From Stropharia rugosoannulata (Eukaryota > Basidiomycota > Agaricomycetes > Agaricales > Strophariaceae): a stretch of DNA of 64,000 bases. This document shows positions 42,401 to 47,197 of this stretch, piece after piece. Numbering within the stretch: the first letter of the stretch is position 1; every line of letters starts with the position of its first letter. The notes beneath the pieces are model-generated. The model was given only the letters and a program-made list of their open reading frames with translations. It was not told the DNA's origin and did no database searches. Where the stretch lies: NCBI GenBank assembly GCA_028532985.1, contig JANCIK010000003.1, positions 3,606,001 through 3,670,000 of the forward strand. The letters are read 5' to 3'. A program made the translations under genes and the position numbers.

Positions 42401-45362
42401 CAAGTTATTGGTAATTTCTCTGTTTCCGAAACTCTCTGAACTCAGAGCTACTTGCAGAATCAATGTGTGTCGCTTGCGAATATCTTCGTCTACGGATCTG
42501 GGACCAGAGCTATATATAGCAATTCTCAGGCATATATGTCTGCGGCGTGCAGATTTTCTATTAGAAGTTAGAACACCGCGGGAATTTTCCAAGGTCCGAT
42601 GATCTGCCGTGCACGGCAAATCACGCTCCGGGGCCGCGCGTCTTGAACTTTGAAGGCCTGTCCTCTCCCGGTAATGCATCTCTCTCCTTCCGCCACCATC
42701 ACCATTCCTACAATGGCTATCCAAGGTCATTCCAAACTCACTCTACTGGCCAATAATGTACTAAATGGTGCCCTAGCTCACTCTGCAATGGCAAGAACTT
42801 AAGCAGTGAGCACTCCGCTTCAGCAGTGCTTCAGGAACATTCAGGAACATCATGATGTCTTCCTTCTGTCCCGTCCGAGTCCCCTCTTACCTTATCCCCC
42901 AGTTGCCCTTCTTGTCTTTCATCCACAAGTTCGTCCTTCTACATCTATTTTGACAATGGTAAGCAGCCTCGTTCTGCTCTAATGAGAGTGGTTCCTGTAT
43001 TGATTTTCTCCACTGTCCCGCATATAGTGAGTTATGACTATGTCTATCAATAAACAGGCATTGATTAGCCCGAATGAATACAAATAGTAAGCATTATACT
43101 CATCCCCTCTGTTGCTGATTCCATTAACGACCCAATGACTGCTAGTGTTACTGAACGGGTGAGTAAATAGGCGCATATAGTAAGTATTTGGGTTAAATTC
43201 GCGCATATAAATCACTTATGCACATTTAAGCATGGTGTACGACATCGTAGCAGATACAGTGTCCATCCTCTGGGCTGGTGAAACCCTAACCTGCTCGAAA
43301 GGTTGTCATCGATGATTGACTTAAGGTATGTATAGCTGATCTATGTGTCAGGCTTGTAGTTATATATCCCATGTAGTTTATCTCCTTGTACTAATACAAA
43401 TACAATATATTTCTGGTCCTAATGGCATTCCTCGAAAGAACGTATAAGGCTTATAAATGCACAGTCTTGTATTGAATTGTAAGGTCTGGCCAAATTGCAA
43501 CAGGCTTGTAATCTCGGTAATTATTGGTTTATACCAATTATTAAGAACCTTATATTCGAAAACGCTTTCATGTATTCTACGAACTAAGAATTGTGCTTAT
43601 ATAACCAGTTTGACGGGTATGTAAGTAATTGGGCCACATTACATGATTTTGGTATTTTTACTGATGTAGTCAACGATCAAAAAAAGCTGGGAAGCAGCGC
43701 TATTTATAGTCGCCCGTCCACAAGCCACAAGACGGCTTCGCTGTAGGATCCCGACGTCCACCAGTCAGTCCACCTGGCACCAACCCAGCAAGGAAAAACT
43801 AATACACCAGAAACAAGGGTCCGGGTCAGGGACTCCAGGACTTAAGCTGAAGATCAAATCCTGGGATTTCTCTGTCCGCCAGGGGAAGCCCGACCCACTT
43901 CCGTTACGTTCACCCGCCCGGGTCCCGGGTCCGACACAACGCCAAAATGAAAAAAGGGAGGAGTATTCTTTTGCTAACCTGACTCCGGGACGCTCCAAGT
44001 TCTCGCTGCCCGCCAGCAGTCTATCACACGTACACATAAGGAATAATTCCGCGAGGTACATTACTTCCACAACAAGCGCAGTACACGGGGTATTGTAAGT
44101 ACATGAAGCAATACAAAAACAACAAGTCATGAACGGAAAAACGAAGAGGAAGCGGGCAGCGCGCGCGCACGGACGAAAAAGCCAAAAAAGCCAAGCCAAG
44201 CCCAAAGCCAATGACGTTGCAAGTCAGAGCACATTAGGCTAAGTGGGGCACGGGATAAACAAGCCGCCTTTACGAATTGATCAACGCGTGCGCGTTGCGC
44301 GACAACGACAGAAGCAGAGAAAAATAAAAACAGAAAAACAGAAATGCGAAAAAGAAGTCCTGCGCCTGCAGCCAAGGCGACGACGAATAGGAGGGGTACT
44401 ACGGTGCGCAGCGCACCTGGGGGGCCTGCGCTGGCGTGCGGAGGTTAGGTTGCAGGCGTATGGCGGTGACTGTTGATGGTGGTATTACGGGTTGAACGTT
44501 GATGGCAGAGCATACATAGAAGTTGTGTTGTGTTGCATGTGCAGGGTCCATTGCAGGGGCGGGTAACAAAACAGGTCGGGCGGGATAAATGATAGCGGCA
44601 TGGAATCCAAATAACGAATCTGCATCGTCGCTGTCAGCTCAACGGCAGTGGAAGCCACGATTCCTCGATCGAGAACGCACCGGAGGGTATGATAAATAGT
44701 CTCGGAACGTAAAACATAGACAACAAGCCGAGGCGGCTTCCTAGTTCCGCGGCTCCGGATTCAGAAAGAAGGGAGAGATTTCAGAGCATAATATTCCGGA
44801 TCTAAAAAGGAAGGCCGTCATGCATGGAGAAATGGGGACAATGATGGAAATACGTTAGTCTAGTTTTGGGCTGATTGGGCGGGCGGGAGATGCAATAGCC
44901 ACTCACGTTTTTGCTCACGATTGCACTAGGGGCGGTTGAGATACATTTTGGGAATAGCGTAGCGGTCGGGGTGGGATTTGTTTGTGGTCCCCCGGAGGCA
45001 TTAGGTGAGGTTTCAGTTCAGAAGACATTCCGTCAGAAATCCCAATTAAGTCAGGTGATAGGGTTTTGCGTTCATTGATTTTGCATGTTGGAGAATATGG
45101 AGCAAAAAAAGGGGGAAAAATAAGATGAGCTTTAGATGCCACTCGCGTATTAGGAAATAAGAAAGAGCATTAAAAAGGAGGATTTTTGGAAAAGGACGCG
45201 AAAACCGCGACCGGAAGATGGTGGTACTGTATAAATGGCAGCGTGTGTGTTATGATACAACTGTCCGCCGAGGCAAGCAAAGTGCGGGAGTGGATGTACA
45301 ACAATGCAAGGTTTTAGGGCAAATAGAATAAATAGCCAAAGCAAGGCAAAAGAAAAGGAAGA
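39458..45362. other. gene-poor region, 5.9 kb
   Basis: No protein gene, tRNA or rRNA recognised on either strand. Open frames of up to about 150 codons (for example 43,765–44,211 minus) show no family features. The left part is AT-rich; the right part (about 43,700–45,300) is purine-rich on the plus strand and lies 3' of the G-alpha gene, so some may be its untranslated region. One clear inverted repeat is present at 41,967–42,028. No LTRs, target-site duplications or transposase fragments were seen. Confidence 0.45.
41967..42028. repeat. inverted repeat with outer and inner stems
   Basis: A perfect 13-nt inner stem (TACAACCAATTGG / CCAATTGGTTGTA, 41,985–41,997 and 42,005–42,017) encloses a 7-nt loop. 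An outer 8-nt stem (GTAAAATT / AATTTTAC) flanks it with unequal internal loops. It could be a tiny non-autonomous element end or an RNA hairpin. Confidence 0.75.
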
Positions 45363-47197
45363 CTAGATCATAGCGGCAGTTTCAAGATTTGAACGGAGGG
45401 CGATGCTGTAGAGTAAAGAAAGGAACAAAGAAGATGAGCGTACGGACGAATATGGAATTTGAATCCAACCCCCGAGGGAGGGGTTGTTGAAAAAAGTGAT
45501 CCAATCATTCGGGGATCACAGTGGGAGAGAAGAAGTTCAAAAAGATGGGCACTCACTCTGCGCAATCAACCAGTTAGCTAAAGTAGCTTTATTAGGAAAT
45601 AAGGTGTTGCAGAGACGTACCTTCAACCGCAGCCATCACCACCCGGAGCATTGCAGTGTCTGTCGCCGTCGTCACGCTGGTATAGCCGACAAGAAGGCCG
45701 GTCATTTCAGGAAGGGAAAAAGGAGTGGGACAATTGCATGGTTAGCAAGTGAACTGGGCAATGCAAGATGCGGGGGAGGTGAGAACGGCTATTACTCACT
45801 GAATGTAGATTTCCCGCTCTTTGGATCTTCCTGCCTTTGCAGCTAAGCGGCCAAATCGGCGTTTGAAGTAATCTCGGCCAGCTTTCGAATCGTGTGGTGG
45901 GCCGTCAAAGTCCTGTGCAATGAGGCGTTCAGAACCGACGTCGATATAAAAAGGGTCTCGAGGAAGATCACGTACGGGGAAGAAGTTCTTGATATCAGAC
46001 GATTGGACTTTTCTTACGAACAAGTCGTCCTTGTTAAGGAAAAGAATCTGTAGTTGATCAGTCATGGGACATCAATGACTGCATTCGAAAGGCTTACTAT
46101 TGATGTTTGCTTGAACCACTGGGAGTGGCAGATTGAATCCCATATCGTCATAGCGTCTTGCATTTGATTCTGAGTCAAGAGTTCAGCAAACAGGCCGGCG
46201 ATAATGCGAAAATATAACGACTTACGGCGTCCTTGTCCTCCACCAGACACTGGTCGTACCCGCTTAAACTGACCAAAAACAAGATACTAGTCACATCTTG
46301 GAAACAATGAATCCACTTCCGCCGCTCGCTCTTCTGTCCACCGACGTCCACCATCGTCATTTCATGGTCCCGTAAATAGAACGTTGTCTCAGTAATACCG
46401 ATTGTCCGTGCTCTGCAGTGTACAATATCTTGCTCCGTAGGTTGATAATCCTCTTGAAATAGTCGATCCAGGTCGGAATAGAAATAAGTTAGACTGCAGG
46501 CAGACAGGAGTCAGCGACAAGAAAAATGAATAAGAAAATCGCACTTCTCCGGTAGCGCGGCCTCGTTACCGCGCTCGTAAGCTTTTTGTACGTTGGTGTC
46601 CTCCCATAGCGATTTTAGCGGCGCGTAGTACTCCCGGGGGAAGACTTCGCCATCACCCAAGTCCTTCACGCCGTCGATCAGTTCTAGATACTGTTCGTTC
46701 TCCTCCGAGACCTGCAGCTCCATATCCTCCATCGCATCCAAAACATAGCGCAGCCCGCGCGTGAGGTTGTCGAACACCAGCTGCCGGTAGTGCTCTATCT
46801 CGGACGCCGTGAACGGCATCTTGTGGATCAGCCGCATTTGCTGTACACGCCGCCGCCCGCCAACGTAAGTGCGCCTGATTGAAGGGTACAACGATAACAA
46901 AACGCACCTTGAGGACGGTCGATTTGCCGGAATCGCCGGAGCCTAGAAGCAGGACCTAGCATGCGACAGCAGTGAGCGGCCTGCGCCCACCAGCGCAGAG
47001 TCGTCGTGAATATCACTCACCTTGACCTGCGCCGCCATTTTCGCTTTCGCCTGCAGAAATAGAGGTGAGGGGGATATGGGTGGGCGCCGGAGTGGGCGAA
47101 TACGCACCTCCTTGAGCTGCTTCTCAGCCTCTCTGTGCATCAGCTTGTCCTCCTCGGTGACCTCGAAGCCCGCCGGGGCTGACATGCACGAGCCCAT
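45363..47197 (-). CDS. heterotrimeric G-protein alpha subunit, divergent basidiomycete type
   Basis: GTP-binding signal transducer of the inner plasma membrane. The N-terminus MGSCMS carries Gly2 for myristoylation and Cys4 for palmitoylation. G1 reads GSGDSGKST (usually GAGESGKST), switch I RARTIGITET keeps the arginine finger, switch II reads DVGGQKSERRKW, G4 reads FLNKDDLF and G5 reads TTATDT. Exons join in frame from 47,197 to the exon ending MAAVE-G at 45,621. The conserved C-terminal helix IALRSNLETAAMI is at 45,363–45,405. To reach it in frame at the invariant length, a 1-nt exon (45,557) must be inserted between two consensus introns. Divergent motifs place it among the expanded, non-canonical basidiomycete G-alphas. 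Confidence 0.88.
45557..45557 (-). other. putative 1-nt micro-exon of the G-alpha gene
   Basis: On the minus strand GCGCAG (acceptor) is followed by a single A and then GTGAGT (consensus donor). The upstream intron (45,620–45,558) starts GTACGT and has a CTAAC branch site 17 nt before its acceptor. The downstream intron is 45,556–45,406. G + A + C makes the Asp codon found at this place in canonical G-alpha proteins. Confidence 0.55.

Follow-up and report, generated by a model that had tools for sequence, protein, structure and literature searches.

A probable single-nucleotide exon leads to two predicted C-terminal tails in a G-alpha gene of Stropharia rugosoannulata

The G-alpha gene in the window, the 64,000-nucleotide stretch of Stropharia rugosoannulata DNA analyzed here, very probably contains a constitutive exon of a single nucleotide, an A at position 45557, that joins exon 9 to either of two sets of terminal exons. 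Sequence comparison suggests, as the best reading, that a G-alpha gene with this one-base exon and two tails is widely conserved in the Agaricomycetes. An exon of one nucleotide is at the limit of what splicing can physically achieve, and the seeming conservation of this one over several mushroom-forming orders makes comparative and genetic study possible. The exon is placed where one G-alpha gene would pick between two predicted receptor-contacting tails. Exons of one nucleotide are themselves already known; the novelty here would be a basidiomycete example at a junction with two tails.

The gene model is listed in Table 1. Introns 1-8 have GT-AG boundaries throughout and are 50-123 nt long. 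Both predicted products match the G-alpha family profile (Pfam PF00503, cut-off 48.8 bits), isoform a with 395.1 bits over profile positions 4-332 of 333 and isoform b with 395.2 bits over positions 4-333. Homologues carry the names GPA2-like or "heterotrimeric G protein alpha subunit 4", and the closest match among those listed is a protein of Hypholoma sublateritium (90% over 97% of the query). The isoform a product has 362 residues, 13 of them after the Asp that exon 10 would complete. Both isoforms have an alpha5 of canonical length, with 25 residues after TDT in isoform a and 24 in isoform b; by alignment, the G-alpha-o chain 6oik_A (354 residues) has 25 after TDT and 13 after the Asp. 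For both tails, the alignment to alpha5 of G-alpha-o extends to query residue 358, and the Asp matches.

Table 1. Predicted features of the G-alpha gene in the window and other G-alpha regions of the genome.
Feature	Position	Strand	Remarks
G-alpha gene, whole	47197..44781	minus	ATG to distal stop codon; gene model and translation
Exons 1-4	47197-47108, 47050-47021, 46955-46908, 46840-46545	minus	part of G-alpha body
Exons 5-8	46493-46226, 46169-46098, 46047-45976, 45912-45800	minus	rest of G-alpha body, up to EIYIH
Exon 9	45676-45621	minus	encodes (H)VTTATDTAMLRVVMAAVE + G; phase 1 end
Intron 9, 63 nt	45620-45558	minus	GTACGT...CTAAC...GCGCAG
Exon 10, putative single nucleotide A	45557	minus	middle base of Asp codon GA[C/T]
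Intron 10 of isoform a, 151 nt	45556-45406	minus	GTGAGT...CTACAG
Exon 11a, proximal terminal exon	45405-45363	minus	C + IALRSNLETAAMI + TAG; tail a
Intron 10 of isoform b, 631 nt	45556-44926	minus	shared GTGAGT donor to CCCTAG, exon 11a skipped
Exon 11b, 19-nt micro-exon	44925-44907	minus	T + AIVSKN
Intron 11b, 105 nt	44906-44802	minus	GTGAGT...TTTTAG
Exon 12b	44801-44781	minus	IRNIML + TGA; end of tail b
Other G-alpha regions (L009-L026)	contigs C1, C3, C4, C5, C7, C10, C12, C13		profile match

The original prediction held that a one-base exon is needed to build the C-terminal helix, and the frame conflict from which it started is present in the letters. Exon 9 ends in phase 1 at 45621 (...GTT GAA G), followed by a GTACGT donor from 45620, and tail a restarts in phase 2 at 45405 (C ATC GCC ... 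TAG, 45405-45363). A direct join of exon 9 to exon 11a is a frameshift, read as VEASPSVQILKLPL*. The predicted intron can likewise be followed from GTACGT through CTAAC to GCGCAG (last base 45558), with the A at 45557 next and a second donor, GTGAGT, from 45556. Insertion of the A yields the canonical Asp and 13 further residues, as in G-alpha-o by alignment. The arrangement GCGCAG/A/GTGAGT is that of a single-nucleotide exon with consensus sites, flanked by introns of 63 and 151 nt.

Exons 9 and 11a are separated by 215 nt, longer than any of introns 1-8, and CTACAG, ending at 45406, is the sole later AG ahead of coding tail a. GT-AG combinations in this interval were enumerated with the last acceptor fixed at 45406, introns of at least 40 nt, a micro-exon shorter than 40 nt, and a first donor within 40 nt (one intron) or 20 nt (two introns); the first donors covered were those outside exon 9, at or after 45620. 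Five in-frame solutions resulted, and strong sites throughout were found only in the solution with a 1-nt exon (donor 7.9, acceptor 4.6 and donor 9.1 bits, on a small scoring matrix derived from nine introns of this gene, 1-8 and 11b, of which 11b belongs to the reading under test). Longer micro-exons of 7, 25 and 3 nt were rejected for their poor donors. Of 20000 shuffles of the interval that preserved its dinucleotides, 13 contained the pattern YAG N GTRNGT and 92 contained some frame-restoring micro-exon of at most 31 nt with sites of this kind. Genome-wide (48 Mb), YAGNGTRAGT occurs 1310 times, below the 2132 occurrences of the reversed control, with an expectation of about 0.003 per 215 nt on one strand. 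By itself the motif is common in the genome and proves nothing.

While the one-base exon stood up to analysis, the account of a single C-terminus given with it was incomplete, as the gene appears to have two, both reached through 45557. A distal pair of terminal exons, overlooked earlier, encodes (D)AIVSKNIRNIML; it starts 437 nt downstream of the stop codon of tail a, its splice sites fit the consensus and its phases match. Its letters are TAG/T GCA ATC GTG AGC AAA AAC/GTGAGT ... TTTTAG/ATC CGG AAT ATT ATG CTC TGA. Exon 11b is in phase 2 and likewise needs the A at 45557, giving GAA GAT GCA ATC ..., that is, VEDAIVSKNIRNIML. One locus thus holds alternative terminal exons, 11a and 11b/12b, in the same phase and each with its own stop. 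The donor after the A would have two targets, a 151-nt intron leading to tail a and a 631-nt intron leading to tail b. Tail b of homologous proteins suggests that the 44926 junction is used in S. rugosoannulata, and both isoforms are probably made there. Exon 11b is a further micro-exon, which the annotation of Lactarius tabidus P0138 appears to skip; the letters of P0138 after VE run nearly straight into IRDIML, and they would fit an intron before IR, as in the window gene.

Homologous proteins were gathered by three protein searches, whose queries were the spliced protein, the C-terminal portion of isoform b and a divergent homologue. The best 120 of 1423, 229 and 7968 hits, respectively, gave 167 distinct proteins, each representing a cluster at 90% identity. 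By source tags and contig size, record titles being left aside, 71 were classed as transcript-type (tags jgi/lgn/ena; contigs of 1.1-3.2 kb) and 96 as genome-derived (ncbi/uniref/nr), the latter including P0032, which has the tag nr alone and is without a contig size. At least 340 aa are present in 67 of the 71 transcript-type proteins, and 58 of these 67 lie on contigs under 1835 nt, the genomic length of the window gene as far as its proximal stop codon, such that these contigs can hardly hold its introns. Among the proteins listed, all 71 of transcript type have VVMAAVE or a close variant (e.g., MTAVE), then D, then a tail, in lists that favour full-length, correctly ended proteins because the queries carried D and a tail. 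Tail length after D is 13 or 12 residues, and 11 in one protein. Tail a (D + 13 aa, like IVLRSNLEVAALI) is found in 41 of the 71, and tail b (D + 12 aa, like AIISKNIREIML) in 30, one of them shorter by one residue; these counts are 39 and 28 plus P0139 and P0160 (tail a) and P0130 and P0043 (tail b). The A at 45557 is needed for both the frame and the conserved protein, since its omission is a frameshift and the Asp is present in every transcript-type homologue.

None of the 96 genome-derived models listed has the D followed by a recognizable tail, and work built on these models would therefore use a truncated or altered end. The public annotations examined thus appear, from sequence comparison, to get the ending of this G-alpha gene wrong. 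The largest group (29/96) begins VEG and has an unrelated ending, a pattern as if the exon 9 donor had been read through. Another 27 end VEE*, as happens when intron 9 is spliced and A-GTGAGT or A-GTAAGT is then translated; named models of this kind include Agaricus, Pleurotus, Coprinopsis, Grifola, Irpex, Russula, Bondarzewia and Punctularia, genera that span several orders of Agaricomycetes. Exact tail length with Gly replacing the Asp is seen in 15 models, in which the missing base was presumably spread over the junction by the aligner or annotator. Wrong tail lengths (14/96), other endings (4/96) and absence of the motif (2/96) make up further groups, and one genome model, P0093, has the Asp followed by an unrelated run-on. 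The remaining five models begin VEA, and all five decode as tail a in a shifted frame (11/11, 10/11, 11/11, 8/8 and 11/11 residues; 0/500 shuffles each), as a direct join of exon 9 to exon 11a predicts. Two further models were included in the shifted-frame test; P0081 fits at 11/11 (1/500 shuffles), and P0162 does not fit (6/13; 340/500 shuffles). Failures of these kinds are what one would expect of a 1-nt exon that is conserved but overlooked by annotation. The proteins and the patterns of mis-annotation, taken together, suggest that the homologues have the 1-nt exon at the DNA level.

The same proteins bear on two other ways of removing the interval. In the first, a single intron runs from an in-frame GTCTCT donor (45616) to 45406, and Gly-Thr replaces the Asp (VEGTIALRS...). 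Such an intron is GT-AG and in frame, and some genome models have an additional residue here, with VEGN, VEGS, VEGA or VEGY before the tail (P0053, P0061, P0060, P0085, P0077). However, the donor, already considered poor in the original prediction, scores -2.35 bits, compared to the 5.8 to 9.1 of nine further donors in the gene, and the extra residue is absent from all 71 transcript-type homologues listed, making this single intron highly improbable. The second is a nested [D1,2] stwintron, in which the internal intron ends gcgcagAG and the last exonic G together with TGAGT forms the external donor. The letters permit it (GAA/G[gtacgt...gcgcagag]TGAGT), and stwintrons are known in fungi, according to the portions of that literature available to us. 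It would, however, join GAA to C ATC or T GCA, in a frame that yields neither tail, and it predicts loss of the Asp that the transcript-type homologues retain; there is next to no chance that it is correct.

Alternatively, the two tails could come from two paralogous genes elsewhere, the distal exons in the window being a decayed relic. The G-alpha family of S. rugosoannulata is large. At least 18 other genome regions match the G-alpha profile, some within open frames of more than 500 aa. The 18 regions fetched are 22-48% identical to the window protein per aligned piece, three of them being without a match to it at 1e-3, and no close paralogue of the window gene was found among them. In the nearest paralogue (L009), an intron seems, by eye, to lie just past TDTQQIK, elsewhere than the site in the window. 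Moreover, both exon sets lie at one locus with sites and frame intact, and a search of the genome allowing 3 mismatches found exon 11b with its donor (25 nt) once.

Bodies that are nearly identical but differ in their tails also argue against two paralogues. P0024 (tail a) and P0138 of L. tabidus (tail b end) are 100% identical at their 337 ungapped columns and differ by a single gap of 10 residues, and P0077 of Suillus fuscotomentosus (a) and P0096 (b) are 99.1% identical over 348 columns. A tree of the bodies with 92 labelled rows (51 a, 41 b) has 25 tail changes, although it is a quick tree with 37 of 90 inner branches below the support limit. A complete split into two gene lineages would need about 1 change. 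Shuffled labels gave a median of 30 changes, with 25 or fewer in 9 of 500 shuffles, indicating that the labels clump somewhat, as paralogues would have them do. The tree omits bodies under 300 aa (P0133, P0136, P0143, P0150), rows without an [MI]AAVE motif (P0036, P0104, P0130, P0139, P0154), rows without a recognizable tail (including P0043) and the proteins found by the divergent-homologue search only (P0158-P0167); the label b of P0138 was assigned by hand from its tail, IRDIML after a short join. Both the near-identical bodies and the tree changes are comparisons across database proteins rather than within one named strain. P0067 and P0090, both named Armillaria solidipes, share 92% of body columns, and one has tail b, the other tail a. 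Two copies of the gene may exist in Armillaria, as P0044 stands apart from P0067 and P0090 on the tree, and this too would suit an origin of the tails in paralogues. On balance, such an origin is distinctly unlikely for the gene in the window.

If a constitutive one-base exon serves both tails, the A at 45557 would complete the conserved Asp of alpha5, as GAA G/A/C for tail a or GAA G/A/T for tail b. Introns 9 and 10 would be removed consecutively, by intron definition, since the spliceosome can hardly grip both sides of a 1-nt exon. The context of the second donor, AGA/GTGAGT, is identical before (cagA) and after (GAAGA) removal of intron 9, such that this donor would be recognizable at either stage. 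It seems more likely that intron 9 is removed first, given its shortness and its complete sites. Which acceptor is then used, the proximal (45406) or the distal (44926), would set the predicted receptor-contacting tail; the last residues of a G-alpha govern receptor choice. Failure of the second step would leave GAA GAG TGA and a G-alpha cut just before its tail (VEE*), the product of intron 10 retention being exon 9 and the A followed by GTGAGTGCC.

It could be argued that this truncated protein is the normal one, given that 27 of the 96 genome models end in VEE*. None of the 71 transcript-type proteins does so, in searches that rank full-length proteins higher, and the truncation would cost alpha5 its final 13 residues, the main receptor contact of a G-alpha. 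The truncated form is thus very unlikely to be the normal product, and a minor VEE* isoform may occur alongside the full-length protein. A doubtful but possible extension of the one-base exon reading is that the exon forms the conserved centre of a switch with three outcomes (tail a, tail b, or a stop at GAG TGA), by which mushrooms retarget or silence this G-alpha. The A would stand at the donor re-formed once intron 9 is gone, and the unspliced form would be a predicted receptor-uncoupled G-alpha. Should this be true, the G-alpha would be redirected between receptor classes or silenced in mushroom development, and the 1-nt exon may be kept across Agaricomycetes for that purpose.

Parallels exist for each part of this arrangement. 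C-terminal splice variants from one G-alpha gene are reportedly produced by GNAO1 (Go1/Go2) and by Drosophila G-alpha-q. Like the window gene, these acquire different alpha5 ends by alternative splicing of one gene, but their exon arrangement and lineage are unrelated, and to our knowledge none involves a 1-nt exon. Fungal stwintrons, as described in the accounts available to us, resemble the window gene in having adjacent introns that are removed consecutively; unlike stwintrons, the window gene has donors and acceptors that are all complete, with one exonic base between the introns. Arabidopsis APC11 has a constitutive 1-nt exon flanked by two introns, for which the authors, in the available text, consider intron definition and stepwise (recursive) removal, with the introns leaving in turn (PMC4674806). 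A potato micro-exon cited there loses its second intron before the first (PMC4674806, text as available). APC11 is thus like the window gene in its constitutive 1-nt exon between two introns, but it is a plant gene, and alternative tails are not described in the available part of that text (PMC4674806).

A closer parallel, in the text available, is provided by CYP621A P450 genes of Fusarium, in which a 1-nt exon, G, supplies the second position of a codon belonging to a conserved motif (PMC12940212). The accessible part of that report gives 18 SRA reads in support of the exon and 20 orthologues within Fusarium (PMC12940212, 2026), and its authors describe the exon as the second reported of one nucleotide and the first from a fungus (PMC12940212). 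CYP621A and the window gene are both fungal, and in both the exon was found via a conflict between phase 1 and phase 2, supplies a middle codon base and is accompanied by faulty gene models. CYP621A differs in that its base is G, its reported orthologues are from Fusarium and alternative terminal exons are not described in the accessible text, whereas the window gene is a basidiomycete signalling gene with the base A and a predicted choice of two tails. The homologues of the window gene belong to several orders, in contrast to orthologues within Fusarium. A catalogue of plant micro-exons also exists, as far as the available text goes (PMC8831610). Among titles and abstract openings, from a body of literature that most subscription journals lie outside, there was no 1-nt exon in a G-alpha gene, no alternative C-termini of a fungal G-alpha and no 1-nt exon at an alternative-tail junction. 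In the main text, as available, of a Schizophyllum commune splicing survey, the terms "G protein", "GPA" and "heterotrimeric" are absent (PMC5034255), and words starting with "splic" are absent from that of a Flammulina filiformis G-alpha paper (PMC9030616).

Some further features of the protein and the window were observed. Scans of the window for tRNA and Rfam families gave no matches, and a scan for bacterial promoters and terminators gave nothing exceeding shuffles. AlphaFold models were built from an alignment of tail a proteins (34 rows, first row P0003; mean pLDDT 70.0) and one of tail b proteins (33 rows, first row P0010; mean pLDDT 74.3); at both tails the pLDDT is about 35-48, and the models are uninformative about them. 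Tail b ends in NIRxIML. This resembles the IML(Q) end of animal G12/13, and in a chain search with the tail piece (60 listed of 198 matched), only the G-alpha-i/12 chimera 1zca reached the last residue of the query. The likeness to the G12/13 end may serve as a lead only. At the other end of the protein, the N-terminus is MGSCMS (47197-47180), which fits the N-myristoylation (G2, S6) and palmitoylation (C4) expected for a membrane-bound G-alpha. The P-loop, GSGDSGKST (46943-46917), has Asp at the position of Glu in G-alpha-o (GAGESGKST). This Asp is invariant in both homologue alignments, indicating that it is probably a trait of this G-alpha subfamily.
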